Shown: positions 6,800 through 62,529 of the stretch, in pieces
How the letters are laid out: the number at the start of each line of letters is the position of its first letter
Numbering within the stretch: the stretch's first letter is position 1
Source of the DNA: Pontiella desulfatans
GTDB lineage: Bacteria; Verrucomicrobiota; Kiritimatiellia; Kiritimatiellales; Pontiellaceae
Direction: 5' to 3'
Assembly (NCBI RefSeq): GCF_900890425.1
Contig: NZ_CAAHFG010000001.1
Span: 1,426,001-1,490,000, forward strand
DNA: 64,000 bases
Position numbers and translations under genes: made by a program
Notes under the pieces: model-generated
What the model was told of the DNA's origin: nothing
Databases searched by the model: none
Seen by the model: only the letters and a program-made list of their open reading frames with translations

Positions 6800-6946
6800 A
6801 CCCACGGGGGTTTTAAAAAAAATCGTCCGCCTGTTTTATGCCGTTGTTCAATCGGAATAGGGAACAGGCCGTTCCCGCTCAACCAAATGAAAGAGCGAGG
6901 CATGCAGATGAAAAAGATGGAAACCAACACTATGAAGGAGGGCAAT

Positions 6947-9244: not shown

Positions 9245-9331
9245 GGCCCACACCCCCGGTTTAAGTTTTGAGAGGTTGGTTGAGCGGCACCTCCATGCGG
9301 GGTGCCAAATTTAAAGCAAAAGGAGAATGAA

Positions 9332-10048
9332 ATGAAAAAAACAATAGCAATACTTACGGTTGCGGTTTGTGCAGGAGCTATGTCAGCTTCGGCAGCATTA
9401 CTCGTAGGCTGGGATGATAACTTTAATCAACCCAATAACGGCTCCACTACTCCTCCTCCCAAGACAGCAACTGGTTTCTCGGGTTTGGCAACTCCGGACG
9501 CCAATTTAAATTGGTCACGCACGGCTTCAGCCGCGAGCACCGATGGCACTTTCGGTACTTTAGCAGGCGCAGGCACCGAAACTGGTTTCTCAGATGGATT
9601 GGCTTTGAATAACGGAAACAATGGCCATTTCGACTTCACGGTCACGAACGGAACCGCCGATGATTATGACTTGGATTTTTTCCACTTCGACGCGGGCGCT
9701 ACCAGACCGAAGGCGGCGGATAACTGGACTCTATCAGTTCTGTCAGGTGCCCTTACTGTAGGTAATGTAACCAGTGGTGTTTCTCCCAATGGCGGAGGCA
9801 CTCTCGTTTGGGCTGAGAATGACCTCGACTTGACTGGTCTTGCTGACAACACACTGGAAGCAGGGCAATCGGTCGTATTTCGATTAGATTTTGTGCAAGA
9901 TGGCACCATCCAATATGAGGGTGGTCACAACCTGTATTTGGACAACATCGCTATCAGCGGAACTGTGATTCCGGAACCGGCCACGCTGGGTCTGGTTGCT
10001 GCATTCGGTGGCGCAGTACTTTTTATCCGCCATCGCTTCATGATCTAG
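9332..10048 (+). CDS. PEP-CTERM protein made of the shared beta domain
   Basis: A 238-residue exported protein. The start has AAGGAGA at 9319-9325. Layout: signal peptide (1-22), one copy of the ~200-residue domain shared with both neighbours (23-212: VGWDDNF..., DGTFGTLAG, FFHFDAGATRPKAADNWTLSVLSG, LADNTLEAGQ, GGHNLYLDNIAISG), then a PEP-CTERM sorting signal (IPEPATLGL, hydrophobic helix, RHRF). PEP-CTERM tails are processed by an exosortase, and the protein usually ends up at the cell surface or in the extracellular matrix; no exosortase gene is in this window. It is probably transcribed with 6947. Two terminator hairpins follow. Confidence 0.88.
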   Translation: MKKTIAILTVAVCAGAMSASAALLVGWDDNFNQPNNGSTTPPPKTATGFSGLATPDANLNWSRTASAASTDGTFGTLAGAGTETGFSDGLALNNGNNGHFDFTVTNGTADDYDLDFFHFDAGATRPKAADNWTLSVLSGALTVGNVTSGVSPNGGGTLVWAENDLDLTGLADNTLEAGQSVVFRLDFVQDGTIQYEGGHNLYLDNIAISGTVIPEPATLGLVAAFGGAVLFIRHRFMI

Positions 10049-10090
10049 TCTGATCAATACAACCGATGCACTTGAATGGGTGCAAGGTTA

Positions 10091-10113
10091 AGGGGGCTGG
10101 CAAGCCCCCTTTT
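10091..10113 (+). terminator. Intrinsic terminator after the PEP-CTERM gene
   Basis: Perfect 8-bp stem AGGGGGCT/AGCCCCCT with a 4-base loop, followed by TTT. Confidence 0.7.
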
Positions 10114-10119
10114 AAGGAG

Positions 10120-10150
10120 CGGGGGCTGTTCAGTCCCCGTATTCTTTTTA
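10120..10150 (+). terminator. Second hairpin with T-run
   Basis: Stem CGGGGGCTG/CAGTCCCCG with a 2-base apex (near perfect), followed by the T-rich tail TATTCTTTTTA. With the previous hairpin this forms a tandem terminator between 9332 and the following glycosidase gene. Confidence 0.65.
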
Positions 10151-10170
10151 GTGAAAGCGGACGTGTGAAG

Positions 10171-39426: not shown

Positions 39427-39859
39427 TAATCCCTGTTTCGACTGCCCTGAAGCCTGATCTCTAAAGTGTTGGCAGAATAATCAGTACATACTTACGGAAA
39501 TGGTCGGAAACCTCAAATTAACCCTTGTTCAAATCGTTGAATATTTTCCAGTGCTTCAAGCGGTCGGTTGGCAAATGATGAAATACTAGGACTGACACGA
39601 ATGGTGAGCCTCTTTATGGAGGGCGAGGTTCCACCCGAGCCGCCCGCCGCACCGGATCGTTATTCGCCACAAACCTCCTTCGCCAAGGCTACGGCGGTCA
39701 AGTATCGCGCAGGGAAACGCAAGGACGGGGCGGAAATAAATTCTGGAGTGCGCCGGGAACTGAAAGGCCACGCCGCTTTAAAAACCGGTGCGGATGGTAT
39801 TTCTACAGGACAATTGAACGACAAGACTATTTCGGTGCGGGTGGATTTTTTAAACCGCT
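39427..39859. other. Intergenic region between the GH106 promoter and the repeat array
   Basis: It contains operator site 7. From about 39601 there is degenerate sequence related to the following repeats (GAGGGCGAGGTTCCA, GGTGCGGA, AAAGGCCACGCCGCTTTA). I see no credible gene; short open frames here are compositional. Confidence 0.5.
39528..39541 (-). promoter_or_regulatory. Putative LacI-type operator (site 7)
   Basis: On the minus strand TTCAACGATTTGAA, the best copy: perfect 5-bp arms TTCAA/TTGAA around CGAT. It lies 101 bp before the GH106 start and ties the minus-strand rhamnosidase operon to the + strand locus. Confidence 0.65.
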
Positions 39860-40377
39860 GCGTCCGCACCGGAAATAGTCCTGTCGTTAATCGTCTTGTG
39901 AAAAAAACGGGTTGGAGGGCGAGGTTCCATCCGAGCCGTTCGTGGAGGGGCGGAAAGAAATTATGGAGTACGGCAGGAACGGAAAGGCCACGCCGCTTTA
40001 AAAACCGGTGCGGACGGTTTTGTTGGCCACACAATTGAGAAGCAATTGCGCGCAGAAAGCACAAAGACCACAGCCAGGCTCTTTATCCCTATAAACTTAA
40101 CTAGAATGGTCTCACCACAGAGGACACGAAGGCACAGAGGAGCGGGAATGTTCAATTGCTCTGCGTCTCGGTGACCTCTGTGGTAAAAAACAAACCTGTT
40201 TAATTGGGTATGATTCACACCAAAGCGGCTTCGCAGCAGAAAAAATGACAGAACAATTAGGACAGAATGATTTCCTTTATGCCGTAACCATGAATTATTT
40301 TGTCCTAATTATTCTGTCAAAAAAATTGCACGATTTGCTTAACCGCGAATGAACACCAATGAACACGAATTTCCGCT
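39860..40377. repeat. Non-coding repeat array, unit 1 (518 bp)
   Basis: The unit starts at GCGTCCGCACCGGAAATAG. It contains inverted repeat A at 40114-40184 (ACCACAGAGGACACGAAGG... / ...CTCGGTGACCTCTGTGGT) and inverted repeat B at 40246-40319 (TGACAGAACAATTAGGACAG... / ...TGTCCTAATTATTCTGTCA), then AACCGCGAATGAACAC. The left third differs from units 2 and 3, which have a different GC-rich insert. Confidence 0.8.
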
Positions 40378-40869
40378 GCGTCCGCACCGGAAATAGTCCT
40401 GTCGTTAATCGTCTTGTGAAAAAAACGGGTTGGAGGGCGAGGTTCCATCCGAGCCGCCCGTGGAGGGGCGGACGCTGTCCGCCCAGGCGCACGGCGTGCG
40501 CCCCTCCAGCAAGGCATCGCAGGCGTTGGGATGGCCACACAATTGAGAAGCAATTGCGCGCATAGAACAAAGACCACAGCCAGGCTCTTTATCCCTATAA
40601 ACTTAACTTGAATGGTCTCACCACAGAGGACACGAAGGCACAGAGGAGCGGGAATGTTCAATTGCTCTGTGTCTCGGTGACCTCTGTGGTAAAAAAATCT
40701 GTTTAATTGGGTATGATTCACACCAAAGCGGCTTTGCAGCAGAAAAAATGACAGAACAATTAGGACAGAATGATTTCCTTTATGCCGTAACCATGAATCA
40801 TTTTGTCCTAATTATTCTGTCAAAAAAATGCACGATTTGCTTAACCGCGAATGAACACGAATTCCCTCT
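40378..40869. repeat. Non-coding repeat array, unit 2 (492 bp)
   Basis: Same order as unit 1: CCGCACCGGAAATAG block, GC-rich insert CGCCCAGGCGCACGGCGTGC, inverted repeat A at 40620-40690, inverted repeat B at 40749-40822, AACCGCGAATGAACACG. Very high identity to unit 3 by eye. Confidence 0.85.
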
Positions 40870-41377
40870 GCGCCCGCACCGGAAATAGTCCTGTCGTTAA
40901 TCGTCTTGTGAAAAAAATCGGGTTGGAGGGCGAGGTTCCATCCGAGCCGCCCGTGGAGGGGCGGACGCTGTCCGCCCAGGCGCACGGCGTGCGCCCCTCC
41001 AGCAAGGCATCGCAGGCGATGGGATGGCCACACAATTGAGAAGCAATTGCGCGCATAGAACAACGACCACAGCCAGGCTCTTTATCCCTATGAACTTAAC
41101 TTGAATGGTCTCACCACAGAGGACACGAAGGCACAGAGGAGCGGGAATGTTCAATTGCTCTGTGTCTCGGTGACCTCTGTGGTAAAAAAACAAACCTGTT
41201 TAATTGGGTATGATTCACACCAAAGCGGCTTCGCAGTAGAAAAAATGACAGAACAATTGGGACAGAATGATTTCCTTTATGCCGTAACCATGAATTATTT
41301 TGTCCTAATTATTCTGTCAAAAAAAATGCACGATTTGCTTAACCGCGAATGAACACCAATGAACACGAATTTCCCCT
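40870..41377. repeat. Non-coding repeat array, unit 3 (508 bp)
   Basis: Near-copy of unit 2 with inverted repeat A at 41113-41183 and inverted repeat B at 41246-41319. Differences from unit 2 are scattered single bases plus a short AACACCAATG addition. Confidence 0.85.
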
Positions 41378-41539
41378 GCGCCCGCACCGGAAATAGTCCT
41401 GTTATAAATCGTCCTGTAAAATCTCTCTTTGTCCGCACCGAGAATCATTTTGCCAAAATCCTGCCCAGCCCGGCCATGAGCAGGCAAGAAAGCCCGCTCC
41501 ACATTTGGAGGGCGAGGTTCCATCCGAGCCGGTGCGGGC
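41378..41539. repeat. Non-coding repeat array, partial unit 4
   Basis: It begins with the same GCGCCCGCACCGGAAATAG, diverges after ~40 bp (TTATAAATCGTCCTGTAAAA), and ends in GAGGGCGAGGTTCCATCCGAGCC, which also occurs inside each full unit. It abuts the 3' end of the integrase gene. Confidence 0.6.
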
Positions 41540-42528
41540 CTACAGCAAATCCAGCGGGCTCTTCACGGCATGGAGGTCGTGTTCCATGACATGGGTGTAG
41601 ATTTCGGTGGTCTTGACGTGCTTGTGGCCCATCATTTCCTGCACCATGCGAATGGTCGTGCCGTTTTCCAGCAGGTGGGTGGCGAAGCTGTGGCGCAGCG
41701 TATGAACCGTTGCCCGCTTGCGGATGCCCGCTTTGCCCACCGCCTCCTTCACGGCTTTTTGGAACCCGGACTCCAGCACGTGGTGCCGCATCTCTTTCCC
41801 GGATCGCGGATCGATCGACCGCTTCTTTGCCGGAAAGACATACTGCCAGCCCGTTTCCCGGCAGGCGTTCCGGTATTTGCGCGCCAGTGCCTCGGGAACA
41901 TGCACCTCCCCGAACCCCTCGCGCAGATCTTTTTGGTGCAATTCGACCACCCGCTCCACATGGTTGGCCAGCACGGCGCGAACAACCTCGGGCAGCGGAA
42001 CCGTCCGGTCCTTGCTCCCTTTCCCTCCGCGCACGAAAAGATTGCCCTGGCCGAAGTCGATGTCCTGCACCCGCAGCCGGATGCACTCCATCAACCGCAG
42101 GCCGCAGCCATACGTGAGCTGGGCCATCAGCTGGTGCGTCCCCTGCATCCGCGCTAGCACCTGTGCAACCTCCGCCTTCGTCAGGACCGTCGGCGGCTTG
42201 CGATGCCGCTTGCTGCGCACCGGGGCCATCGCCCCGAGATCAAGGTCGAGCACATCGCGGTAGAGAAAGAGATGGCGTTGAGCGCCTGCCGCTGGGTCGA
42301 GGCCGCAACGCCCTGTTTTTCGGCCAGATGGCTCAGGTAGCGCTCCACTTCCGGCGCGCCCATCGCGGAGGGATGCCGGCTCATGCCGTAGAACGCCAGG
42401 AAACGCTTGATCCAGTCGCAATACGTTTGCTCCGTCCGGTAGGCATAGTGGTAATAGCGCATCGTTTCGCGCACTTGATCCATTAGTTTATGGTTTTTGT
42501 CGGGTTTAAACTTCTTCTTGTCTTCCAT
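41540..42528 (-). pseudogene. intI: Integron integrase (IntI-type tyrosine recombinase), frameshifted
   Basis: Two overlapping frames encode one integron integrase. The N-terminal frame starts at 42528 (GAGG upstream) with the core-binding domain (MDQVRETMRYYHYAYRTEQTYCDWIKRF). It shifts near 42270, where one base is missing between ...QRQALNAI and LFLYRDVLDLDLG. The second frame carries the catalytic domain: Box I Arg in TYGCGLRLMECIRLR and Box II HTLRHSFATHL...MMGHKHVKTTEIYTHV. The IntI-specific insert, KYRNACRETGWQYVFPAKKRSIDPRSG, separates it from XerC/D. As read it makes no full-length enzyme. Orientation is divergent from the cassettes, as expected. Confidence 0.92.
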
Positions 42529-43300: not shown

Positions 43301-44224
43301 TTAGCCCGGCACCAGGTTATAGGTTAAATATCTATCCAGTATAGTGGCGTTGTCAAGGCGGGGTCGGAGGGAGGCCGGAGGCCGACCGCAGAGCACGCCT
43401 TGGGTGACCATCGCAAAGCCTTTCGGTGTTTCAAGTTTCAAGCTCCTGTGCGGACGAACATGGTTGTATTCGATTCGCCAGTCTTCGATGACGACCCTTG
43501 CTTCCGACAGCGTCCATAGCTGTTCCCGTTCAAGGCATTCTTCCCTCAGCCTGCTATGGAAGCTTTCAATGAATCCATTCTGCCATGGACTGCCTGGATC
43601 AATGTAGAGCGTCCTGATGCCGGCACAGCGCAGCCACTGCTGCAACGACTGCTCGATGAACTCCGAACCGTTGTCGCTTCGGATATACTCAGGAGCACCA
43701 TGCAGCTCGATTGGGCGGAACACCTGGTTAAGGACATCTTTGGCCTGGATGCGCCGGGCAACATGGATCAGGTGGCATTCCCGGGTATGCTCATCCACCA
43801 CGGTCAGCATTTTAAGCCGTCCGCCACGGACCGTACGGTCATGAATAAAGTCCCAGGTCCATACGTGGCCCCGGTGATCCGCCTTCGTCGGCAGGCCTGT
43901 AGAAAGGCCCTGCCTGCGCCGTTTAGGCTTTCGCTTTGGTACCCGCAGGTCCAGCTCACGTCGAATCCGTTGAACCATCCGCTTACCCACCTTCCAACCG
44001 TCCTCCTGCAGCAGTTTGGTAATCTTCGGATAGCCCCAGCGACGATGCTTCAATGAATAGCGTTTCACGGCAGCCCGCAGGTGCTTCGTCCATGCATCCG
44101 GCTCCTTGGCTTGGTACCGGAAGGTGGATCGGTGGATCTTGAAATAGCGACAGGCCTGACGCCCGGAACAGCGGCCCTGGGTCACAAAGCCCAGAGCCAC
44201 CTGTCGTTTATGCCCCGGACTCAA
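43301..44224 (-). CDS. IS3-family transposase OrfB (type 1)
   Basis: DDE transposase with Asp in TWDFIHDRT, Asp in RSDNGSEFIE and Glu in NGFIESFHSRLREECL. Its start overlaps the OrfA stop after an A7 run (GAAAAAAAGC) suited to -1 frameshifting, the usual way IS3 elements make OrfAB. The frame runs past the element's left end and stops in flanking cassette DNA, so the last ~13 residues (after NATILDR) are host-encoded. Confidence 0.88.
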   Translation of the reverse strand: MSPGHKRQVALGFVTQGRCSGRQACRYFKIHRSTFRYQAKEPDAWTKHLRAAVKRYSLKHRRWGYPKITKLLQEDGWKVGKRMVQRIRRELDLRVPKRKPKRRRQGLSTGLPTKADHRGHVWTWDFIHDRTVRGGRLKMLTVVDEHTRECHLIHVARRIQAKDVLNQVFRPIELHGAPEYIRSDNGSEFIEQSLQQWLRCAGIRTLYIDPGSPWQNGFIESFHSRLREECLEREQLWTLSEARVVIEDWRIEYNHVRPHRSLKLETPKGFAMVTQGVLCGRPPASLRPRLDNATILDRYLTYNLVPG

Positions 44225-44897: not shown

Positions 44898-45743
44898 TCA
44901 TGTTCTGACTGCTCCTTCCATGAATACCTCGGCGGGGGTGCGTTTGTCCAGAGCGCTGTGCTTCCTCTCGTGGTTGTAATATTTAAAATAGCTGTCAAGG
45001 CCCCGATGCAACGCATGCCCGTCGGCATAGCATGCGGGATAGATTTTCTCATACTTCACCGACCACCACAGTCGTTCGATGAATACGTTGTCCAACGCCC
45101 GGCCTCGCCCGTCCATGCTGATGGTGATGTTCTCGTTTAACAGGACACCGGTGAAGGCGTTCGAGGTGAACTGGCTTCCTTGGTCGGTGTTGAATATCTC
45201 CGGATTCCCCTGCGTCAGCGCACGCTCCAGCGCATCAACGCAGAACGTGCTCTCCATGGTGCTTGAGAGCTCCCAGGCGAGCACATAGCGGCTGTACCAG
45301 TCGATTACGGCGGTCAGGTACATGTATCCATGCCGCATCGGGATGTAGGTGATGTCCGTACTCCAAACCTGGTTCACCCGTTCGATGTCCACATTGCGCA
45401 GCAAATAAGGGTAGATCTTGTGCCTCGGGGCGGGCTTGCTCGTGTGCGGACCGGGCGTGATGGCCTGAATCCCCATCAGCTGCATGAGGCGGGCGACCCG
45501 CTTGTGATTGACATCATAGTCTTGATCACGCAACCAGTCCGTCATGCGTGGATAGCCGAACTCCGGATGCCGGAGATACTGCTCGTCGATCAAACGCATC
45601 AGAAGCAGGTTCTCCGGCGTTTCCGGGGCGGGGTCGTAGTAGAAGCCCGATCTGGGGACGCCTGCGAGCCTACACTGCCGCCGAACCGAATAATCGGTGC
45701 CGGGCTCCACCCAGCTGCGGCGCGTTGAAAGCGGCAGGCTCAT
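44898..45743 (-). CDS. IS3-family transposase OrfB (type 2, copy A)
   Basis: 281 residues from ATG 45743, which overlaps the OrfA stop (ATGA) next to an A7 slippage run. It has the HTH-like GVPRSGFYYDP opening, then the DDE core: STDITYIPM, NTDQGSQFTS, and IERLWWSVKYE. A frame extending further upstream overlaps OrfA and is used only in the frameshift fusion. Confidence 0.9.
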   Translation of the reverse strand: MSLPLSTRRSWVEPGTDYSVRRQCRLAGVPRSGFYYDPAPETPENLLLMRLIDEQYLRHPEFGYPRMTDWLRDQDYDVNHKRVARLMQLMGIQAITPGPHTSKPAPRHKIYPYLLRNVDIERVNQVWSTDITYIPMRHGYMYLTAVIDWYSRYVLAWELSSTMESTFCVDALERALTQGNPEIFNTDQGSQFTSNAFTGVLLNENITISMDGRGRALDNVFIERLWWSVKYEKIYPACYADGHALHRGLDSYFKYYNHERKHSALDKRTPAEVFMEGAVRT

Positions 45744-46024
45744 AGCTTTTTTTCGAGCCACTTCACGTCCATCTTCAGACGCCCGATCTCTTCGTAAAGT
45801 GGAGCCGTAAGCTCTTCTTCCGTTTGAGCCTGCTTCTTTTTCCCCGATGCAAAAAGATCCGGCGCATTCGAAAGCAACTGCTTCTTCCAATCCGAAATCT
45901 GGTTCGGATGGACCTGATATTCCGATGCCAGCTCCGCCAATGTCTTCACGCCCTTGATGGCCTCAATCGCCACCTTGGCCTTGAACTTGTCCGTGAATGT
46001 TCTTCGTTTTCTTCCCATTTCCAT
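45740..46024 (-). CDS. IS3-family OrfA (type 2, copy A)
   Basis: 94-residue HTH protein: RRTFTDKFKAKVAIEAIKGVKTLAELASEYQVHPNQISDWKKQLL, then a helix ending DVKWLEKKL at the A7 run. Confidence 0.9.
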   Translation of the reverse strand: MEMGRKRRTFTDKFKAKVAIEAIKGVKTLAELASEYQVHPNQISDWKKQLLSNAPDLFASGKKKQAQTEEELTAPLYEEIGRLKMDVKWLEKKL

Positions 46025-46637: not shown

Positions 46638-47483
46638 TCATGTTCTGACTGCTCCTTCCATGAATACCTCGGCGGGGGTGCGTTTGTCCAGAGCGCTGTG
46701 CTTCCTCTCGTGGTTGTAATATTTAAAATAGCTGTCAAGGCCCCGATGCAACGCATGCCCGTCGGCATAGCATGCGGGATAGATTTTCTCATACTTCACC
46801 GACCACCACAGTCGTTCGATGAATACGTTGTCCAACGCCCGGCCTCGCCCGTCCATGCTGATGGTGATGTTCTCGTTTAACAGGACACCGGTGAAGGCGT
46901 TCGAGGTGAACTGGCTTCCTTGGTCGGTGTTGAATATCTCCGGATTCCCCTGCGTCAGCGCACGCTCCAGCGCATCAACGCAGAACGTGCTCTCCATGGT
47001 GCTTGAGAGCTCCCAGGCGAGCACATAGCGGCTGTACCAGTCGATTACGGCGGTCAGGTACATGTATCCATGCCGCATCGGGATGTAGGTGATGTCCGTA
47101 CTCCAAACCTGGTTCACCCGTTCGATGTCCACATTGCGCAGCAAATAAGGGTAGATCTTGTGCCTCGGGGCGGGCTTGCTCGTGTGCGGACCGGGCGTGA
47201 TGGCCTGAATCCCCATCAGCTGCATGAGGCGGGCGACCCGCTTGTGATTGACATCATAGTCTTGATCACGCAACCAGTCCGTCATGCGTGGATAGCCGAA
47301 CTCCGGATGCCGGAGATACTGCTCGTCGATCAAACGCATCAGAAGCAGGTTCTCCGGCGTTTCCGGGGCGGGGTCGTAGTAGAAGCCCGATCTGGGGACG
47401 CCTGCGAGCCTACACTGCCGCCGAACCGAATAATCGGTGCCGGGCTCCACCCAGCTGCGGCGCGTTGAAAGCGGCAGGCTCAT
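46638..47483 (-). CDS. IS3-family transposase OrfB (type 2, copy B)
   Basis: Identical to the copy A product as far as can be seen: STDITYIPM, NTDQGSQFTS, IERLWWSVKYE. ATG 47483 overlaps the OrfA stop. Confidence 0.9.
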   Translation of the reverse strand: MSLPLSTRRSWVEPGTDYSVRRQCRLAGVPRSGFYYDPAPETPENLLLMRLIDEQYLRHPEFGYPRMTDWLRDQDYDVNHKRVARLMQLMGIQAITPGPHTSKPAPRHKIYPYLLRNVDIERVNQVWSTDITYIPMRHGYMYLTAVIDWYSRYVLAWELSSTMESTFCVDALERALTQGNPEIFNTDQGSQFTSNAFTGVLLNENITISMDGRGRALDNVFIERLWWSVKYEKIYPACYADGHALHRGLDSYFKYYNHERKHSALDKRTPAEVFMEGAVRT

Positions 47484-47764
47484 AGCTTTTTTTCGAGCCA
47501 CTTCACGTCCATCTTCAGACGCCCGATCTCTTCGTAAAGTGGAGCCGTAAGCTCTTCTTCCGTTTGAGCCTGCTTCTTTTTCCCCGATGCAAAAAGATCC
47601 GGCGCATTCGAAAGCAACTGCTTCTTCCAATCCGAAATCTGGTTCGGATGGACCTGATATTCCGATGCCAGCTCCGCCAATGTCTTCACGCCCTTGATGG
47701 CCTCAATCGCCACCTTGGCCTTGAACTTGTCCGTGAATGTTCTTCGTTTTCTTCCCATTTCCAT
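47480..47764 (-). CDS. IS3-family OrfA (type 2, copy B)
   Basis: Identical 94-residue HTH/leucine-rich OrfA, ending at the A7 slippage run. Confidence 0.9.
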   Translation of the reverse strand: MEMGRKRRTFTDKFKAKVAIEAIKGVKTLAELASEYQVHPNQISDWKKQLLSNAPDLFASGKKKQAQTEEELTAPLYEEIGRLKMDVKWLEKKL

Positions 47765-51437: not shown

Positions 51438-54290
51438 CTATTGAAAAACCAACCTGAAGAAATTATGTCTGTCCGAGGGCGAGACGTCCATCCTGTACGA
51501 TTCTTCTTCGTAATCAGGATCTTCAGTTGAATGCGGGCCATCGAAAAGAATGGCGTTGGCTTGATTCCATGCTCCGGTCAAAGTGTTATTTTGTTCTATG
51601 TTGTATAGCGGTGCGGGGATGTTGTTTTCTCCTGAGGGCGCTACCCGTTTTCTGTAGGTGACTTCAACCCGGTTCGATGGCGAGAGCGGTTTAAAGTTCC
51701 AGGAAAGACCGTTGGTATGAACCGAAGGTGAATCGACAGGAAGACCCAGAAGATATTCTTCCAGATTAGAGATGCCATCGTTATCCATGTCGGTGCCGGG
51801 GAAGGCCGATTCCACCCATTCAGCCACATTGGTTGCTTCGTATATGACATGATATTCCGGAAGTCGAATGTCCATATGATAGGTGGTATTTGAACTCCAG
51901 CGGGACGCATCGGTGATCAGGTCAAATTCAGCCAGCGTATTGGTGTAGTGGGTGTACAACCGTTCGACGACTGCCGGATGTTCTGGATAGAGATCCGTGG
52001 TTTCGCTGATGTCATCAATAATTCGATAGAGGCCGGGCGGGGTGGATTCGTTCCGGTCATGATCAACCAGTTTCCATTCATTGTCGCGCGCCACCCAGCG
52101 ATCATTATGCCACCAGAGAACAATATCATTCGGCGGGGTTGCTGTTTGTCCGGTAATAGCGGGAATGAGGTTGTTACCATCCATAATATCTTCCGGAGCG
52201 AAGCTTCCTCCTGCGAGATTGACGGCGGTAGGCAACAGGTCGAGTCCGGAGACCGTGAAGTCATAACTGAGACCTTCCGGCAGTTGATCTTTCCATTGCA
52301 TGCAGAAGGGGACGCGGATTCCGCCATCCCAGAGGTCGCCTTTCACGCCGCGCAGCGGCGTATTATAAGACTCGTTTCCACCTCCTGCGCCCGTGCCGCC
52401 GTTATCGCTGAAGAAAATAATCATTGTATCTTCCTCGATGTTGTTGGTTCGGACGGCATCAAGAATGTTTCCAACCGCCAGGTCCATAGAATAAACCATG
52501 CTGATCAGTTTTTCCCGGATCGTCAGGGCGGCAGCATTTTTACCGAACAGAATCTGTGAGTGTTCATCCGATGCGGTCATTGGGCCGTGCGGTGCATTGA
52601 ATGGTACATAGAGATAGAATGGTTCATGTGCATGTCGGTTAATGAACGAGACGGCCTCGCGTCCGAAGGCGTCGGTGATATATTCGTCTTCCCGGTCGAC
52701 CGGAAACATGCCGCGCATGATACGGCGGTTCAGGTTTTCGTTGGTGTTGTCTTCGGGGTAGTAGCTGGTTGCCCCATTGTTAAACCCGAAAAATTCATCG
52801 AATCCGCGGTGTGGCGGAAAATGATCGCGGGAATCGCCTCCATGCCATTTCCCGATCATACCCGTGGCGTAGCCCAGATCCTGCATGCGATGACCGAAAC
52901 AGGTCATATCGGTTGGAATGCCATCCTGCATAATTTCACCGGTAGCCGGATCTTCCATATGCCAGGTGGCGGGGGTGTCGTGCAGGGCAAAGCGGTTCTG
53001 GTACTGCCCGGTCATCAGCCCGCCGCGGGAGGGGGAGCAGACGGGGCCGCAGGCATAGCCTGCGGTGAAGGTCACGCCGTTGGCGGCAATAGTGTCAATA
53101 TTGGGGGTGATAATATCTGATGCGCCCAGTGGCTGAAATCCGCAGTCGGCATAACCGAGGTCATCGGCAAACAGGATAATGATGTTGGGCTTTGCGACGG
53201 GAGGGGCAGTATTGATTTCCCGCACCCAGATAAAGCCTTGTGTGTATAGGGGGGCGGTGAACCATTCAAGTCCAGGAGCGAGGGAGGGGAGGGTTAGTGT
53301 GTGGAATTGGCCGGAAATAGCTCCGTTGATGTTTCCGTCAAACAGGTCGAATGCATCACCCGCTTCCAAAGGATCACTATCGTTCAGCAGGGTAATATTG
53401 AGGACGCCATCACAAATGATCGATCCATCGGTTTTAATTTTGTCAGCCGACCGGATCGTTCCTGATTTAGCAATCTCGAGGGACGTGGTGGACGATGTGC
53501 CGAAGGCGATGTCAGCTAGATCCATATCGAGGATGCTGCCGATGGTTCCATCGCTGAGATCTGCCCCTTCTGCGGGATCGAAGGACGGGGGCGTGTAGAC
53601 GGTCGCTGCGGTGTAGCCGATGGTGGCACTTTCCATCGTGAACCAGGCGGCTGTATCGACGGTATTCGGTGTAATGACATCGAGTTTCCATTCAATGGAA
53701 ATGCCGGTGATGGTTTCGTAAGTGATACCACCATCGACAAATGGATCTGTGTCCCATGTGATTGTGTTCCATGCGGCGATAACCGCATCTTCCATTGCGG
53801 ATCCGCTGGTGGCCTCCGTATTGAAAATATTTGTTAAGCCGCTGGTGGCTGTGTAGTTCGTATCCGTTGTCATCAGCGTGATCTCATACCCCATTTGGTA
53901 ATTCTGATCATCTGTCGCAATATTGATGAAGCTGGCTACACCGGCAAATGCAATATCGGCGACATTAAAGTTGGGGGAGATAGCGGTTAATTTTGTGGTG
54001 GATGGGTTATAGTCCGAATCCTCCGTGACAGCTGTGTCATCCAGCAGGTTGATCGGTGCTGTAAATGAAAGAGTTGATGTGGGAGCCGTTGCTCCGGAGC
54101 TTGTTTTGTATTGCACAGCGCCGCCGTTTTTTCCGGCATTATAGTAAATCATCTCTTCACCGGTGGTAGGCAGGTTGCCATCCGGAGGCGATGTGAAAGA
54201 GGGATCATCCAGCAGGTTGTTTACCTGGATTCCGCCGGCATAGAGTCCAGTTGCTACAACTAGTGTTGTTATCAGAATTAACTTGTTCAC
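51438..54290 (-). CDS. Sulfatase fused to an N-terminal passenger-like beta domain and a C-terminal module
   Basis: A 950-residue exported protein. GTG 54290, with AAAAGG at 7-bp spacing, gives MNKLILITTLVVATGLYAGG. Residues ~20-360 are beta-rich and end in GDAFDLFDGNINGAISGQFHTLTLPSLAPGLEWFTAPLYTQGFIWV, a block otherwise seen just before PEP-CTERM tails in this window. Residues ~370-790 are a full sulfatase: NIIILFADDLGYADCG, activation motif CSPSR (Cys418), GMIGKWHGGDSRDHFPPHRGFDEFFG, FFSDNGGTGAGGG, LRGVKGDLWDGGIRVPFCMQW. The C-terminus has DMDNDGISNLEEYLLG followed by a ~100-residue beta module ending FFRLVFQ. The combination suggests a surface-displayed sulfatase. Confidence 0.9.
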   Translation of the reverse strand: MNKLILITTLVVATGLYAGGIQVNNLLDDPSFTSPPDGNLPTTGEEMIYYNAGKNGGAVQYKTSSGATAPTSTLSFTAPINLLDDTAVTEDSDYNPSTTKLTAISPNFNVADIAFAGVASFINIATDDQNYQMGYEITLMTTDTNYTATSGLTNIFNTEATSGSAMEDAVIAAWNTITWDTDPFVDGGITYETITGISIEWKLDVITPNTVDTAAWFTMESATIGYTAATVYTPPSFDPAEGADLSDGTIGSILDMDLADIAFGTSSTTSLEIAKSGTIRSADKIKTDGSIICDGVLNITLLNDSDPLEAGDAFDLFDGNINGAISGQFHTLTLPSLAPGLEWFTAPLYTQGFIWVREINTAPPVAKPNIIILFADDLGYADCGFQPLGASDIITPNIDTIAANGVTFTAGYACGPVCSPSRGGLMTGQYQNRFALHDTPATWHMEDPATGEIMQDGIPTDMTCFGHRMQDLGYATGMIGKWHGGDSRDHFPPHRGFDEFFGFNNGATSYYPEDNTNENLNRRIMRGMFPVDREDEYITDAFGREAVSFINRHAHEPFYLYVPFNAPHGPMTASDEHSQILFGKNAAALTIREKLISMVYSMDLAVGNILDAVRTNNIEEDTMIIFFSDNGGTGAGGGNESYNTPLRGVKGDLWDGGIRVPFCMQWKDQLPEGLSYDFTVSGLDLLPTAVNLAGGSFAPEDIMDGNNLIPAITGQTATPPNDIVLWWHNDRWVARDNEWKLVDHDRNESTPPGLYRIIDDISETTDLYPEHPAVVERLYTHYTNTLAEFDLITDASRWSSNTTYHMDIRLPEYHVIYEATNVAEWVESAFPGTDMDNDGISNLEEYLLGLPVDSPSVHTNGLSWNFKPLSPSNRVEVTYRKRVAPSGENNIPAPLYNIEQNNTLTGAWNQANAILFDGPHSTEDPDYEEESYRMDVSPSDRHNFFRLVFQ

Positions 54291-55262: not shown

Positions 55263-57875
55263 TTAGTTTTCTTTGATGAAGAGCTGGATAAACTTGGCTC
55301 CAAGGTCAGTCGCGGTGCTGTTGGTTACCGCTTCGAAACCATCCAGCTCCGGTCCAATGCCCTCAATGATGGTATCGTTATTGGTCCACGCTGCGTCAAA
55401 CACCAGGTCTGTACTCGTTGCTAATGAGTAATCAATGCCGCTGTTGGCAGCCGTACGACGCGGGTAGATGTAGATGAAGGTCGATCCGTCATTAGAAGCG
55501 CCCATTTCAACCTGGCCGCGATTGGCTGCGTTGGTTGGATCGCCATTAAGACCATATTCATACAGATTGTTTATACCGTCCATATCCGGATCTGCTTCAT
55601 CGGCTGCATCATCGCCTTCCAGTCCATATTTGCCGGTCCACAGGTTGAATGAGGACTCGACCTGAATACCATAATTAATGGTGATGTTATCAAAGCTTAC
55701 ACGGGATGCCGGAAGGCCTTCGGTGACGCCCGGGATGTCGCGTGCCGCGATTTCCAGGAACCAGCTATCATCTCCCAGACCTCCTACATTAGCTAGCGAT
55801 AGAGGGGAGAGGGCGGACAACGTGTCAGAAGGTGTAACACGAGCTGATCCAGTCATTGTGATGTTCGTGCTGCCGTCCATGAAATCGGTAATTTCAACAG
55901 CGGTCGCATCGGTTACGTTCAGGCCGCCAAATACGACGGTTGAGATATCTTCAGTGGATGATATTGAAACCTGAAGTTTCAAGACTTCATCATCATCCGT
56001 TAAAGTGGTCAGCCCCGAATCGTGGCGAAAATCACTTTTACCGGCAGGACCGCCTTTCAAGCCTTGAATGGCTGTTCCGTATAAGCCGACGGTGTAGTTG
56101 TTAATCTGGGTATCCGGGAAGTCTCCGACACTGAGCGTCAGGGTAACTATGGTATTCCCATTCGTTATAGATCCGGCAGTGGAAACCTGATCAGCCAGGA
56201 AGTCGGCATTCAAAAAATCCGTAAAATTGACACTTTTGTACGAAACGCCCGGTTCGCCCACGGAGATCGAGCCGTCTACGGAAAGATCATCGGTATAGAA
56301 CTCGGCTCCTTCGGGAAGATTATTGGTTGGAAGTTCTACGAAAGAGAAGGCTCCGGTATACGAACCGGCGCTGAACAGTTTAAATGAATCACCGATTTTA
56401 AAGATGTTGGTATTTACAGCGAGTACAATCAGATCTCCACCATAGGTGATTGTTCCATCACCAATCGCCAGCTGATCCCCGGCGGCCGTGGTTGGGTTCA
56501 GACTGAAGTTATGTGTGCCGCTACCCAGTTCAAGGTTGCCGATACTATTTGCATTTGCGGTGAAAGAGGCCACGTTGCTGATGCCACCAACCGTAAGATC
56601 ATTGATGATGAGTGTGGCTTCAGCACTGTTAAGTAAGATTTCTCCGTTACCGTTCAGATTGCCGAGAACTTTATCTGATGCTGTCGCATTGAAAATCTGG
56701 CTTCCATTGGCCGTGACGGTCAGTTCTGAAAAATCCGTTTCGTTGCCGTTAAAGGCGATGGCGCCATTGTCGAGGACGTTTATTTTTGTTCCTGCTTCAA
56801 CACCTGAATCGAGCTGGAAGTTAAGGCGGCCAATATTCTGCATGGTGAAATCACCGCCGAGGTTGATATCTTTCAGGTCAATCCATCTTGCCGGTTTTGA
56901 AAGGGCCGTTCGTAATTCATTGGTAATGGTAATAATCTGCAGATTATTGCTGATGCCGTAAAATTGAAGCGCCGCATCACCATTCCATTCCAGTTCGTCA
57001 ACGACCACGTTTAGATTGGTGGCAGGATAAACGGCACGTGCGGTCGCTGTTCCTTCCAGGATGACGTCAGAGCCGTCGATCCAGTTGGTCCATGCACTCT
57101 GGTTTGCAAACGGACCTACGCCCCAGCTCGGGGATGTGGTATCCCAGGTTACAGGGGAGTTAACATAGGATTCTTCGGCCACATCTCCGGTTCCAAGTCG
57201 AATTGTTCCTGTGTAGTTACTGACAAAATTTTGGCTGAGCTCGTAGTCAAAGCTGATCTGTCCCAGCGCGGTAACACCATCTGTGGACGTGTGAAGGACT
57301 GCATAATTCAGAGACCAGCTGTTTGTGGTAGCTAGGGTTAAATCATTGAGTCCAGCACCTGTAATATCTGCTACGCCATAGTTGCCCTTTGGTGAATTAT
57401 CGGGAGCTTTGATGACCAATTCGTTATCGCTGTTGTCGAATAGTGTGCGATCATCTTGTCCCGCAGTATTTCCTTCGTAGCGGATATTTAGATTATTGAA
57501 TGCAAGGCTGTCGAGCAGGTCCGCTCCAGAGGAAATAGAAATGGTGAACTTGGCAAAGTCACCGGCACGAACACGTTCGTCTCCTACTCCGACTCCTGCG
57601 CCATTCGGAAATATATTTACGTTTGTTTGTGTAGAGGATGAGATGATGGCTGAGTCATTGGTGAAATTATACCCTGCAACATTCAGTGCAAAGCTGACGC
57701 CATCCTGGGTTTTTGTGAATGTAATACTGCCGTCATCCTCATCTGTTTTGTCTAACGAGTTCCAGTTCTTTGATTCATCGCTTGATGGAAATCCAAAGTC
57801 AATCTGGGCGGCTTCAGCAGCTGAAATCCCTAAGGATATTAGGGCGGCTAGTAATAAGGGTGTTCTTTTCATCAT
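55263..57875 (-). CDS. Large exported beta-rich protein with C-terminal module
   Basis: 870 residues; AGGAGG directly before ATG 57875 decides the start; signal peptide MMKRTPLLLAALISLGISAAEA. Residues ~20-560 hold two similar beta sections separated by passenger-like repeats (LGNLNGNGEILLNSAEATLIINDLTVGG), including IGDSFKLFSAGSYTGAFSFVELPTNNLPEGAEFYTDDLSVDGSISV, the FxLF...LP block also found in neighbours. Near the end: DPDMDGINNLYEYGLNGDP, then a beta module ending FIQLFIKEN. No catalytic motif recognised. Probably a surface or matrix protein under the operator-like site at 57958. Confidence 0.8.
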   Translation of the reverse strand: MMKRTPLLLAALISLGISAAEAAQIDFGFPSSDESKNWNSLDKTDEDDGSITFTKTQDGVSFALNVAGYNFTNDSAIISSSTQTNVNIFPNGAGVGVGDERVRAGDFAKFTISISSGADLLDSLAFNNLNIRYEGNTAGQDDRTLFDNSDNELVIKAPDNSPKGNYGVADITGAGLNDLTLATTNSWSLNYAVLHTSTDGVTALGQISFDYELSQNFVSNYTGTIRLGTGDVAEESYVNSPVTWDTTSPSWGVGPFANQSAWTNWIDGSDVILEGTATARAVYPATNLNVVVDELEWNGDAALQFYGISNNLQIITITNELRTALSKPARWIDLKDINLGGDFTMQNIGRLNFQLDSGVEAGTKINVLDNGAIAFNGNETDFSELTVTANGSQIFNATASDKVLGNLNGNGEILLNSAEATLIINDLTVGGISNVASFTANANSIGNLELGSGTHNFSLNPTTAAGDQLAIGDGTITYGGDLIVLAVNTNIFKIGDSFKLFSAGSYTGAFSFVELPTNNLPEGAEFYTDDLSVDGSISVGEPGVSYKSVNFTDFLNADFLADQVSTAGSITNGNTIVTLTLSVGDFPDTQINNYTVGLYGTAIQGLKGGPAGKSDFRHDSGLTTLTDDDEVLKLQVSISSTEDISTVVFGGLNVTDATAVEITDFMDGSTNITMTGSARVTPSDTLSALSPLSLANVGGLGDDSWFLEIAARDIPGVTEGLPASRVSFDNITINYGIQVESSFNLWTGKYGLEGDDAADEADPDMDGINNLYEYGLNGDPTNAANRGQVEMGASNDGSTFIYIYPRRTAANSGIDYSLATSTDLVFDAAWTNNDTIIEGIGPELDGFEAVTNSTATDLGAKFIQLFIKEN

Positions 57876-58231: not shown

Positions 58232-58912
58232 TTATGGTCCGGCAAAAAGCATTCCGAGTGTACCTTGTATCGAATCGGTTGAGATGATTGCGTGCAGGGT
58301 AGGGTTGTCAATGACGACAAAAAATGTGGTTCCGGAGTCATTTCCGGAAATGTGATGCATCACCATTTTGTATTCTATACTGATGATGTCTGAGAGTTTA
58401 ACGCCGCCTTGTGCATCAAGATCTCCGAGGTATACCCCGTTTTGCCAGGTTGGATTTTTTATACAGACGGTATTGTTCTTAATTTTATGAGGCTGAAATG
58501 ATTCTGATTTGAGCTGATAGGTTCCCTGTTTAGTGATGATGTCAATGGCGACAAAATATTCAAGTTTGAGGCCGGCCCCTGCGCGTCCTGCTGTCTTACT
58601 GAAAAAGCTTGATTGCTCTTCACTGAAGCTGAATCCCTTAAGGATGGTGTTGTCTGCGTCGTAATTGGGAAGGCTGCTCAGGTCGGTGCAGATTCCTTTG
58701 GCTACATGCCAGGTGTCATTAGGGGCACCGTCTTTCGCATCAAAAACAATGTTATCCGGCCCGTTGTCACGCCATTCGCCATTCAGGCTCCATACATCAC
58801 GGTTGATGGTGCCGGAAAATTCGCCTGCCTGGATAATGTTGTTGGTAAAGAAATAGGCATGTGCTGAAAAAGCGAAAACGGAAAAGATCGTGATCAGTGC
58901 TGATTTTTTCAT
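58232..58912 (-). CDS. Exported protein of unknown function (226 residues)
   Basis: Start 58912 has GGAGA 7 bp upstream; signal peptide MKKSALITIFSVFAFSAHA. The mature part is a probable beta sandwich (GEFSGTINRDVWSLNGEWRDNGPDNIVFDAKDGAPNDTWHVAKG; YFVAIDIITKQGTYQLKSESF). It ends GTLGMLFAGP, without a PEP-CTERM tail or the C-terminal module of its neighbours, so it may be freely secreted or a shortened relative. No family recognised. Confidence 0.75.
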   Translation of the reverse strand: MKKSALITIFSVFAFSAHAYFFTNNIIQAGEFSGTINRDVWSLNGEWRDNGPDNIVFDAKDGAPNDTWHVAKGICTDLSSLPNYDADNTILKGFSFSEEQSSFFSKTAGRAGAGLKLEYFVAIDIITKQGTYQLKSESFQPHKIKNNTVCIKNPTWQNGVYLGDLDAQGGVKLSDIISIEYKMVMHHISGNDSGTTFFVVIDNPTLHAIISTDSIQGTLGMLFAGP

Positions 58913-59020: not shown

Positions 59021-60172
59021 TTAGATCATGAAACGACGGCGAATAAAGAGCAGCCCCGAGCCGAAGGCTCCGATAAGCCCGATGGTTGCGGGTTCCGGAA
59101 TCACGGTAATGGTTCCTGTGCCTCCGGCCGCAAGATCGGAGGTGTCCCACGAAAGCCCGCTGTGGAGTTGCGGCATCGATATACTGTCGAAGCTGCCGAG
59201 CAGGGTATTGGAAAACAGGTCGAAAGTATCCCCCACCATCAGCGCATCGCTACCTGCAGTCAGGCTCACGGTCAGATCGCCGCCCAGCGTAAGGGCGCGC
59301 GATTCCCAGTCGACGGTGAACTGATCCTGCTCAATCTGGGCGCCGTTCTTGCTGATATCCATGCTGGTGGATGCTCCGGAAACGAAAGCCGCGGCGATCC
59401 CCCAGCCGAAATTAATCGAATCGGTGGCGTTGCCATTGCCCATGTCGGCGCCCATGTTGTTTATCGTCAGGCTGTTGAGCCCGTTGGCGTTTCCATCGCG
59501 AATGATTGTTCCGCTTCCGCCCAGGGTGCCCATGTTTATATATTGTTCGCCGGCGGCATCGTCAATATTGTCGTCGAAGCGCAACTGGCCGCCCTCCATC
59601 CTGACATTGGAACTCGTGCCGAGCGTGCCGAGCCCCCTGACGATGAGGTTGCCTTGGCTAAGGGTGGCCGTTCCATTGATCTTGTTCCCGCCGTCGGCCA
59701 GAATCAGCCATTGGCTGCCGGTTTTGGTGAAGTCGCCTGAGGTGGCGAAATCCCAGTAGAAGCTATTGGCCTTCTCGGTGTTTATGACTGCTCCGGAGGA
59801 GAGGTTCAGTTGCAACTGCCCGCCGCCGGGTTTTTGCATGCGGTTGATGGAGGCGGTGCTGCCGGAGGTCTGGTAGGTGCGGATGCCGCCGACACTGACG
59901 CTTCCATAGTTTTGCCAGTTGAAGAGGATGCCGCCCGTTCCTTCTAATCCAAAATGAAGAACGTCGCCACTGGACACGGCACTGATGATTCCGCCGCCAC
60001 CACCGGTTGAATCCGTGTTCCAGGTGACCGCGGTTGGGTCGACCGTTAAGGCGCCTCCACTGTTGTTGACGCCGAACCCCGGCGTGGAACCGTTGTAGTC
60101 TAGATAAAGGTCTGCCCCAAACGACAAAGCCGGTAGCGCGGCCGCCAGCAATCCTGCAATTGTTTTTTTCAT
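59021..60172 (-). CDS. PEP-CTERM passenger-like exported protein
   Basis: 383 residues from ATG 60172 (GAGGGG upstream): signal peptide MKKTIAGLLAAALPALSFG, then beta repeats (WNTDSTGGGGGIISAVSSGDVLHFGLEGTGGILFNW...VGGIRTYQTSGSTASINRMQK), GDTFDLFSNTLLGSFDSISMPQLHSGLSWDTSDLAAGGTGTITV and PEP-CTERM tail VIPEPATIGLIGAFGSGLLFIRRRF. The first ~300 residues are clearly paralogous to the product of the preceding gene (60232-62529). Probably in one transcript with it; a GCCCGG/CCGGGC hairpin (60199-60217) lies between them. Confidence 0.88.
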   Translation of the reverse strand: MKKTIAGLLAAALPALSFGADLYLDYNGSTPGFGVNNSGGALTVDPTAVTWNTDSTGGGGGIISAVSSGDVLHFGLEGTGGILFNWQNYGSVSVGGIRTYQTSGSTASINRMQKPGGGQLQLNLSSGAVINTEKANSFYWDFATSGDFTKTGSQWLILADGGNKINGTATLSQGNLIVRGLGTLGTSSNVRMEGGQLRFDDNIDDAAGEQYINMGTLGGSGTIIRDGNANGLNSLTINNMGADMGNGNATDSINFGWGIAAAFVSGASTSMDISKNGAQIEQDQFTVDWESRALTLGGDLTVSLTAGSDALMVGDTFDLFSNTLLGSFDSISMPQLHSGLSWDTSDLAAGGTGTITVIPEPATIGLIGAFGSGLLFIRRRFMI

Positions 60173-60231: not shown

Positions 60232-62529
60232 CTAGTCCTGTTGAACTTCCAGCCGGATGAACTCAGCATCGCCAATATCCGTTCGGTTGGTGACGGACTT
60301 GAAGTTGTTTGTGATGGCGACCTCGTCCACGAACTCAACCCCGTTGGTAACCCATTCGGGGTCGATGGCCAGATTGCCCTTCAGCTTGACGGCATAAGCC
60401 AGCGAGCTGTCGTCGGTGCGTTCGTTGTGCACATAGTAGAACCAGTCCGATCCGCCGTCTTCAGCCACGGTGAATACAGGAAGTTTGTCGCCGGCATCGT
60501 CAGCCGTCGGATTGCCATCGAGGGCGTATTCGAGCAGGTTGTCCATGCCGTCGTTGTCAACGAAGTCGTCATTCGGACCTCCGATATCCACGCCCCAGCC
60601 ACCTGCCCAGACGTCATATGGGCTGGGGGCGCTGTCACGGGTGAGGGTAACATTATCCACCATGCATGATTGGTTTCCGGATCCGGTGCCCGCATTTGTG
60701 GTTGTTGTCCAATGGAACAGTGCCCGAACCATGGCCGATCCGGCTGGGGCTGTGGCAACAATATTGGTATGCGCCCAGGCATTGGTGGAAATGGCGGCAT
60801 CAATATCCAGTGAGTCCCTGGAAATTTCTGCACTGCCGCCATCCAGCCATACCAACGCCATTTCAACCTGTCCGCCGTTTGCTCGGAAGTTGTCCTGAAC
60901 TTTAAATCCGGCATCCAGGTTGTATTCAATACCTGCTGCTGTCGCCTTGTCCTGGTAGAAGGAATTGGTCGCGCTCTTGTTCCAGCCTTTCATCCAGGCA
61001 CCTTGCTCCTCGACCGCCTCGGGTTCCGAAGCCCATGTGGATTTTTGGATGCCTTGCTGGCTGCCATCCTGCGTCCAATCGCCATTGGCATCGATGGTCG
61101 TGCCGCCGCTTACGAGGGCAGGAAGTTCGAAGTCGCCGTTGCGCAGACCGAAGGGCACCGTGGTCGATGCCTCTGCACTGGGATCGCCTTCGGCAGGGAC
61201 AAAGTTATAGGCGCTAACTTGGTAGTAGTAGGTAATGTCATCGGCAAGGGTGGTCGTGTCGGTGTATTCACTAATGCCAACGTCGGCGATTTCGACGAAG
61301 CCACTGCCACTAGTTTCGGAGCGGTAAACCTTGTATCCGGTAACCGTTAGTTCCGAGTTGTCGTCCCAATCCAGGCTGACCGTGTAGATATTGCTGACGG
61401 CAACGAGGCCGGTCGGGGCTGAAGGGGCGTTGGTGTCCGCTGTCACCACCGAAATGGTGCCGGAAGAAGAGAGTAGGGCGCTACTCCAGATTAGGCCGGG
61501 GTCGCCGGGGTCTGGGAGGTTGATCGTATCAAAACTCCCTAGCATGGTGGCATTCTGGGCATGGTTGATCCGGAAGAGTTCAAACGTGTCGCCGTCTGCT
61601 AGTGGTTCGCTGCCGGGGAGCAATTCGACGTTCAAGGTGCCCGCCTGAGTCATGGTTTGGCTGCCCCAGCGAACCCAGATCTGGTCGCTATAGTTAGTGG
61701 CGCCCATTTTAGTGACTTCCATATCCGACACGGAGGAGGGATTAAGGGCGAAGCTGGCACCGGCGTCAAAATCGATTAAGTCTGTAGCTACACCATTCGT
61801 CATATTGACGCCCATGGAGTTGACATCAATATTCCATAAGTTACCTGCCCCGTCCTGCCGGACTTTACCTGAGCCGGAGAGGATTCCCACATTGGCTGTG
61901 CCGCTCAGGCCGCCTTGGATGCGGAATTGTCCGCCATTGAGCTTGAAGCTGGAGTTGGAATCAACGGTGTTAAGGTCTTTTACGATGATGTTATTTTGGC
62001 TGATCGTGCATGTTCCGTTTACCTTCGGGCCGCCATCGGAAAAAATGAGCCATTTTTCACCGACCTTTTCGAAATCTCCGAAGGTTCCGAGAAGCCACCA
62101 AAGGCTACATTCTTTTTCTGAATCAAAAAAGGCTCCCGGTGCCCATTGAATGGTTTGGAATTCTGAGTTTTCACTGTTGGTTTTTTGAAAACGACTGATG
62201 TTGGCCGTACTGCCGGCCGTTTGGTAAGTGTGGATCCCGCCAACAGTTGCGTTCGTGTAATATGTCCAGTTGAAGAGGATGCCTCCTCCGCCTTCGAGTC
62301 CGAAGTGCAGGATATCGCCATCACTCACATTAGTGATCGCTCCACCCGCTCCACCCGTGGAGTCCGTGTTCCAAATGAGGTTCGTAAAGTTAACCTCGAT
62401 GGGGGAGTTGTTGGTGTTGACGTCAAAACCGGCGGATGCGCCATTGAGGTCAAGATATAAATCGGCTGCGTGCGAGGCAGCGGCTGCGCAGAACAGGGCA
62501 GCGATGGTGGTTACTGTGCTTCTTTTCAT
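60232..62529 (-). CDS. Exported modular protein: passenger-like domain, FnIII, binding-like domain, C-terminal module
   Basis: 765 residues; AGGAGAAGAGGAA before ATG 62529; signal peptide MKRSTVTTIAALFCAAAASHA. Order: passenger-like region ~20-370 (WNTDSTGGAGGAITNVSDGDILHFGLEGGGGILFNW, GDTFELFRINHAQNATMLGSFDTINLP), fibronectin III domain ~375-465 (APSAPTGLVAVSNIYTVSLDWDDN..GYKVYRSETSGSGF), a beta-sandwich ~470-630 (LRNGDFELPAL.., GQVEMALVWLDGG), and the C-terminal module with DFVDNDGMDNLLEYALDGNP ending FIRLEVQQD. Compared with its paralogue it has exchanged the PEP-CTERM tail for this module. Confidence 0.85.
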   Translation of the reverse strand: MKRSTVTTIAALFCAAAASHAADLYLDLNGASAGFDVNTNNSPIEVNFTNLIWNTDSTGGAGGAITNVSDGDILHFGLEGGGGILFNWTYYTNATVGGIHTYQTAGSTANISRFQKTNSENSEFQTIQWAPGAFFDSEKECSLWWLLGTFGDFEKVGEKWLIFSDGGPKVNGTCTISQNNIIVKDLNTVDSNSSFKLNGGQFRIQGGLSGTANVGILSGSGKVRQDGAGNLWNIDVNSMGVNMTNGVATDLIDFDAGASFALNPSSVSDMEVTKMGATNYSDQIWVRWGSQTMTQAGTLNVELLPGSEPLADGDTFELFRINHAQNATMLGSFDTINLPDPGDPGLIWSSALLSSSGTISVVTADTNAPSAPTGLVAVSNIYTVSLDWDDNSELTVTGYKVYRSETSGSGFVEIADVGISEYTDTTTLADDITYYYQVSAYNFVPAEGDPSAEASTTVPFGLRNGDFELPALVSGGTTIDANGDWTQDGSQQGIQKSTWASEPEAVEEQGAWMKGWNKSATNSFYQDKATAAGIEYNLDAGFKVQDNFRANGGQVEMALVWLDGGSAEISRDSLDIDAAISTNAWAHTNIVATAPAGSAMVRALFHWTTTTNAGTGSGNQSCMVDNVTLTRDSAPSPYDVWAGGWGVDIGGPNDDFVDNDGMDNLLEYALDGNPTADDAGDKLPVFTVAEDGGSDWFYYVHNERTDDSSLAYAVKLKGNLAIDPEWVTNGVEFVDEVAITNNFKSVTNRTDIGDAEFIRLEVQQD

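Follow-up and report, generated by a model that had tools for sequence, protein, structure and literature searches.

In the polysaccharide utilisation loci of the Bacteroidota, surface glycan-binding proteins are encoded in sets with enzymes; to our knowledge, binder and enzyme as a rule have no domain in common. Among sulfatases of solved structure, the best relatives by sequence and fold of the catalytic domain described here are PsS1_19B, an exo-4S-kappa-carrageenan sulfatase (6prm, 6psm), i-CgsB and ZgCgsA. We take PsS1_19B, the iota-carrageenan sulfatases and ZgCgsA to be S1_19 enzymes. The S1_19 chains compared here are single-domain, of 451-480 aa, whereas the protein described here is multi-domain, with ~370 aa added in front and ~140 aa behind.

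According to an earlier description, proteins with PEP-CTERM tails are highly diverse and show little homology to proteins already known (PMC1569441). For Pontiella desulfatans F1, a genome of 8.6 Mbp in 5 contigs has been reported, with 521 sulfatases, most of which have a signal peptide; the same source reports S1_19 enzymes in both Pontiella type strains (PMC6388578), and both strains, F1 included, are reported to grow on kappa-carrageenan (PMC7356697).

Here we describe P0001, a gene in a 64,000-nt stretch of DNA (the window) from this marine polysaccharide-eating bacterium, which encodes a predicted sulfate-removing enzyme with a module of surface-sorted proteins in its front half, and which is present twice in the genome. 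P0001 is a further sulfatase architecture in a genome that ranks among the richest in sulfatases yet described. It also belongs to a wider habit of the genus, in which a surface-sorted protein lies beside a larger protein with the same domain. This neighbour pattern is more useful than the single protein as a handle on the function of exosortase cargo in Kiritimatiellae that degrade polysaccharides: a shared domain lends itself to expression by itself and to binding assays, and the partner enzyme, where present, hints at the likely substrate.

A multi-domain sulfatase gene and its surroundings

In the open-reading-frame analysis of the window, P0001 is a single frame that begins with GTG and is free of stops (Table 1). 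Residues 1 to ~357 close with GDAFDLFDGNINGAISGQFHTLTLPSLAPGLEW, and the C-terminal module includes TDMDNDGISNLEEY and ends in ...NFFRLVFQ. Neither the first 370 residues nor the tail are covered by any Pfam or NCBIfam model at E<=1.

Table 1. Features of P0001 and of the genes around it (positions in the window)
Feature	Position	Strand	Evidence
P0006, second S1 sulfatase, SGSH_C type, 16 bases downstream of P0001	49832..51421	-	PF00884 + PF16347
P0001, putatively exported multi-domain S1 sulfatase	51438..54290	-	open frame and full-length paralog, 63% identity
Putative Sec-type signal peptide MNKLILITTLVVATGLYAG, residues 1-19	54234..54290	-	judged by eye
N-terminal beta domain, ~215 aa, residues 20-235, orphan family	53586..54233	-	profile search and mostly-strand low-confidence model
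GDxFDLF/GLEW block, ~85 aa, residues ~269-354, common to matrix proteins	53229..53486	-	profile matches
Block/sulfatase junction	53150..53220	-	residues 350-380 87% identical to paralog; pN 0.07 vs pS 0.77
S1 sulfatase domain, residues ~365-805	51876..53198	-	PF00884, 6prm and Foldseek matches
CSPSR formylglycine motif	53025..53039	-	sequence; C, P, S, R invariant in 13/13 aligned sulfatases
C-terminal module, ~140 aa, residues ~805-949: DxDxDG segment (51774-51791) and ~100-aa tail	51441..51875	-	sequence/profile comparison
P0005, PEP-CTERM protein, upstream of P0001	54362..55168	-	TIGR02595, 23.6 bits
P0004, large matrix-type protein, block 56265-56507 and DxDxDG tail	55263..57875	-	profile matches
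P0002, PEP-CTERM protein, block 59117-59368	59021..60172	-	TIGR02595 and block profile
P0003, block 61453-61728, then Fn3-like sequence and DxDxDG tail, no PEP-CTERM	60232..62529	-	body shared with P0002

An earlier note, made from the letters of this DNA, had read a complete sulfatase with CSPSR after the block, and this is borne out: PF00884 covers residues 376-702 (E=1.8e-52, 179 bits against a cut-off of 25). The nearest solved chain by sequence is 6prm (E=1.9e-91, residues 373-813), an S1_16 enzyme being the next relative after the S1_19 chains, and Foldseek aligned the model with a sulfatase at a TM of 0.83 (normalised to 6psm, 36% identity). Twelve residues (D376, D377, C418, P420, S421, R422, K481, H483, H568, D629, N630, K650) are invariant in 13/13 aligned sulfatases, and we take them to be the expected metal-binding and catalytic residues. 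Judged by these features (PF00884 above cut-off, CxPSR, metal and catalytic residues), P0001 would be a type I (S1, formylglycine) sulfatase, and its nearest solved chains place the catalytic domain closest to the S1_19 carrageenan sulfatases. Since S1_19 enzymes and growth on kappa-carrageenan are also reported for both type strains, the 4-sulfate of that type of polysaccharide is the first candidate substrate.

The N-terminal domain is of a much rarer kind. Its profile found 3 proteins in 345 class genomes, namely P0001, its paralog and a protein of a congener (L019) that continues into Fn3-like repeats and ends in a DxDxDG tail; no PEP-CTERM protein was found to carry it, and 0/3 bearers have that tail as far as the sequence reaches. 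Structure prediction had been put forward as a check. Of the full-length model (mean pLDDT 59.1) only the sulfatase part is good, and the block reaches pLDDT 83-96 over residues 291-360, better than the N-terminal domain, which is mostly strands at low confidence (mean pLDDT 57.8) and had no Foldseek match at E<=0.001. In VIA its best Z was 5.8, in a tie among viral jelly rolls, the furin P-domain, CBM28 and others; CBM28 stood in the Z 5 rows, level with unrelated beta-sandwiches against a low-confidence model, and Pfam had no match for the domain. With such tied values and such a model, we claim no fold assignment for this domain.

The block, by contrast with the domain before it, is widely shared. 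In P0002 the counterpart stretch GDTFDLFSNTLLGSFDSISMPQLHSGLSW leads into VIPEPATIGLIGAFGSGLLFIRRRFMI, the PEP-CTERM tail (TIGR02595 17.7 bits, cut-off 16). The two blocks are 36% identical, a 26-block profile in which both are included scores them at 92.7 (P0001) and 81.7 bits (P0002), and P0001 alone as query found the P0003 block at 1.3e-10; we judge the likeness to P0002 to be beyond chance. The earlier comparison of the front ~350 residues with P0002 thus holds for the closing block but not for the N-terminal ~240 residues, which are unshared. Searched with the profile, the genome has 12 places at E<=0.01, and at E<=1e-4 there are matches in 71/276 of the phylum's genomes, where some of the proteins concerned are very long. 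Among 56 distinct block-bearing frames, which are best matches and not a random sample, the block is followed by PEP-CTERM in 34, a DxDxDG tail in 12, a sulfatase in 2, other sequence in 3 and the locus end in 5 (the script counted 35/10/2/4/5; L075 and L021 were reassigned to the DxDxDG class by eye). The two frames with a sulfatase are P0001 and its paralog. Because DxDxDG tails and other sequence also come after it, the block marks a boundary between modules and is not in itself an anchor.

For the C-terminal tail, profile comparison with the tails of P0003, P0004 and two other proteins gave 53% probability and E=1.3e-4 in one comparison of 103 columns, and with a second tail set the alignment was limited to the 25-column DxDxDG part, so that we call the P0001 and P0003/P0004 tails, as far as such alignments go, of the same kind only.

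The cluster runs on the minus strand as P0003, P0002, a small protein (58232-58912), P0004, P0005, P0001 and P0006, the last of which possibly shares an operon with P0001. P0002 and P0003 have their whole body in common (E=6.2e-84) and differ at their ends, and the body domain of P0005 heads a sulfatase ~52 kb away (L012:5053-8001, E=4.7e-80). Beside the sulfatase cluster is a stretch rich in mobile elements, with IS3 transposases at 44898-45890(-) and 46638-47630(-), whose translations are identical and which lie 1740 bases apart, and a third at 43301-44224. Also, an integron integrase at 41540-42421(-) scores 330.8 bits with TIGR02249 (cut-off 265) and has ~500-base direct repeats downstream (39855-41421); the two together may form a cassette array that is oriented unusually.

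The junction between block and sulfatase

The joining of block and sulfatase in one gene, as the earlier note had read it, is real. A search of the 8,658,305 bases of the genome, in 6 contigs, found a second full-length gene 0.7 Mb from P0001 (L002:1462-4320, that is G000:C1:2180601-2183411), which has the same domain order, no stops and ~62-63% identity over residues 12-943. Comparison of the two genes, in which synonymous sites are saturated or nearly so, gave pS 0.79 / pN 0.38 (dN 0.52) for the N-terminal domain, 0.86 / 0.31 (dN 0.39) for the block, 0.70 / 0.12 (dN 0.12) for the sulfatase domain and 0.82 / 0.38 (dN 0.52) for the tail. By these substitution counts, with pN far below pS at the junction itself (Table 1), every segment is under purifying selection and the frame is preserved and constrained across the junction, which answers the earlier note's refuting condition of a stop or frameshift between the two parts. 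That an assembly error, a frameshift or a chance read-through fuses two genes here was found to have no point in its support; a second full-length copy has the same order and a conserved junction, in which amino-acid changes are few, and we therefore give such an error practically no credence.

In its sulfatase domain the paralog carries an in-frame 8-residue insertion, PSAGSGQA (L002:2639-2655), which corresponds to a short repeat of dispersed type. This 17-base pattern recurs at L010:4296-4312, on the 3' side of the region of another sulfatase frame in the same cluster; the 64,000-nt window has no copy of it.

The domain order, which was also to be sought elsewhere, turned up in this second copy but in no other genome. 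At 1e-150 the architecture was found in 1/288 genomes of the phylum, which is the P. desulfatans genome itself, and at 1e-95 a search with P0001 found 8/345 class genomes, again including its own; the matches outside it cover residues ~354-797 only, in frames of 472-608 aa that are without the front half. A scan of named genomes with an alignment of the two paralogs gave 36 pattern stretches, 0 of them confirmed, the own genome perhaps not being covered. The architecture was thus found here only in this genome, while the sulfatase itself is of a known kind. Among the matches listed in the open-access literature searched, no description of such a multi-domain architecture was found.

What the front half may do

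The architecture, the real junction, the conserved active-site residues and the sharing of modules are observed, and we give a somewhat better than even chance to an explanation in which P0001 is an exported S1 sulfatase that its front half keeps on polysaccharide outside the cell; export, maturation, substrate and holding are the steps that we infer. Once exported and matured, the enzyme would depend on formylglycine, probably with 4-sulfated, carrageenan-type galactans as its substrate. Two putative non-catalytic beta modules precede the sulfatase, with a common DxDxDG tail behind. The second of these, the block, belongs to the module pool of the organism's PEP-CTERM surface-sorted proteins, and what follows it is swapped: PEP-CTERM, DxDxDG, a string of Fn3-like sequence, or an enzyme. 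The front half would then most likely tether the enzyme to an algal substrate or to the cell's own sulfated slime. Three observations count against such holding. In the paralog comparison the N-terminal domain and the tail evolve at ~four times the rate of the catalytic domain, a pace that a loosely constrained spacer would explain no less than a binder. The model of the N-terminal domain found no structural match of significance, nor does the domain have a known binding function. Lastly, the closest relatives of the catalytic domain in other genomes (46-52% identity) are without the front half, which is thus not needed for catalysis.

Three other roles for the front half have to be weighed. 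The earlier note had suggested that the enzyme may be surface-displayed; the front half could then serve as its anchor. The genome does encode an exosortase, and the block is common to a PEP-CTERM protein of the same cluster, but at least 12 of the 56 block contexts are without PEP-CTERM, and P0001 itself, in which the block is no anchor, has neither that tail nor any other visible anchor. Neither TIGR02595 nor PF07589 matched at E<=1, so that P0001 does not count as a PEP-CTERM protein; no Pfam match outside the sulfatase was found at E<=1 for the autotransporter (type V) features sought, a beta-barrel or PATR repeats; and no NCBIfam model of a type IX sorting domain matched at E<=1, a search that a diverged signal would escape. 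Display of this sort is therefore not upheld as proposed, and we consider it unlikely.

Frequent domain shuffling could also have left the N-terminal domain and the block as hitch-hikers with no selected role, which would agree with how often adjacent genes of this genome share modules. We rate this rather less probable than surface display, with pN well below pS in both segments pointing to constrained sequence. A folding aid or prosequence, cleaved after export, would agree with the fast evolution of the front half and with its absence from related sulfatases; yet the front half includes the block, a module with which many matrix-type proteins end just before their sorting tail, and of these three roles the cleaved one seems to us the least probable. 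Holding to polysaccharide remains the explanation that we favour.

PEP-CTERM genes and neighbours with the same domain

The earlier suggestion of a matrix protein joined to a hydrolase stands for the block, since a matrix-protein module and a sulfatase do lie in one real gene, and such joining recurs elsewhere in the genome; it does not extend to the N-terminal domain, which was found in no PEP-CTERM protein. Sulfatase frames of at least 500 aa in the loci examined from this genome were compared with 93 PEP-CTERM frames, and 9/37 have an extension that matches one at E<1e-3, including the P0001 paralog via its block; the extensions of P0001 itself gave no match to the 93 frames at that threshold. 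For 4/9 of these sulfatases (L044, L048, L050, L054) the matching PEP-CTERM gene is close by. The joining of matrix modules to sulfatases is thus common in this genome. Other multi-domain sulfatases of the genome (e.g. L010, L012, L043, L044, L046, L048-L052) resemble P0001 in having non-catalytic domains at the N-terminus and, in many cases, a tail at the C-terminus, but the N-terminal domains are different ones, and the combination of N-terminal domain and block occurs only in P0001 and its paralog. P0001 is likewise tied to the PEP-CTERM proteins P0002, through the block, and P0005 in a genome where the body domains of such proteins are shared with large neighbours, some of them enzymes, although it lacks the PEP-CTERM tail.

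Genome-wide, TIGR02595 exceeded its cut-off at no fewer than 93 PEP-CTERM sites (150/200 candidates scored), and PF09721 identified one exosortase. The 20 kb around the 93 sites made up 87 regions (L206-L292), in which 90 frames were located and 3 dropped as not located. Using a threshold of at least 100 aligned residues at E<1e-5 in a non-PEP frame of at least 400 aa, we found a large frame with the same body domain anywhere in the regions for 46/90 PEP-CTERM genes. Such a neighbour lies within 10 kb for 38/90 (permuted mean 0.83, maximum 5) and within 500 bp for 31/90 (permuted mean 0.53, maximum 4) over 2000 shuffles of PEP-CTERM identities among positions, a statistic whose database is the PEP-CTERM surroundings only and in which members of duplicated-gene runs are non-independent.

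Nearly all of these neighbours (56/57) share the strand of their first-listed partner. That most of them are hydrolases was considered and rejected, as only 17/57 have an enzyme family above the Pfam cut-off and 40/57 have none. The enzymes comprise 7 sulfatases (one also GH43), 3 SASA esterases, a GDSL hydrolase, a polysaccharide deacetylase, an acetyl xylan esterase-like protein, an alginate lyase, a GH43, a GHL15 and a di-haem peroxidase. In 3-kb loci, where overlapping frames in one locus are unscreened and one or two cases may be fragments, the neighbour was present for 4/29 and 2/12 PEP-CTERM frames of two congeners (G308 and G227), for 6/28 of the own genome and for 0/15 of a distant phylum member (G217). 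Among the matches listed in the open-access literature searched, no description of such domain-matched neighbours was found.

These pairs may, as a tentative and rather doubtful proposal, be matched sets. The small PEP-CTERM protein would carry a free copy of a domain for sorting by the exosortase, the adjacent large protein would join the same domain to a catalytic or structural part, and both copies of the domain would bind the same polysaccharide or a similar one, the surface-sorted cargo thereby marking the docking place of the matching enzyme; P0001 would form one such set with the block of P0002-P0004. If true, PEP-CTERM cargo, in which homology has long gone unrecognised, would gain a testable role in polysaccharide degradation. 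The arrangement may be likened to the Bacteroidota loci, where the gene of a non-enzymatic surface protein also adjoins genes of degradative enzymes, but by analogy only, as the Pontiella neighbours share a domain and sorting is by PEP-CTERM and exosortase.

Two domain-matched cases lie in the window itself: a PEP-CTERM gene at 9284-10045 between two large genes with its domain (6791-13788, plus strand), and P0002/P0003 (59021-62529, minus strand). Elsewhere, a 1359-aa frame with sulfatase and GH43 (L233:10929-15005) adjoins a PEP-CTERM gene with which it shares a third domain. Additionally, four consecutive genes at L213:6614-16320 have one common domain, encoding a PEP-CTERM protein and three large proteins of 868, 971 and 1085 aa, the latter two of which are GHL15 and esterase-like.
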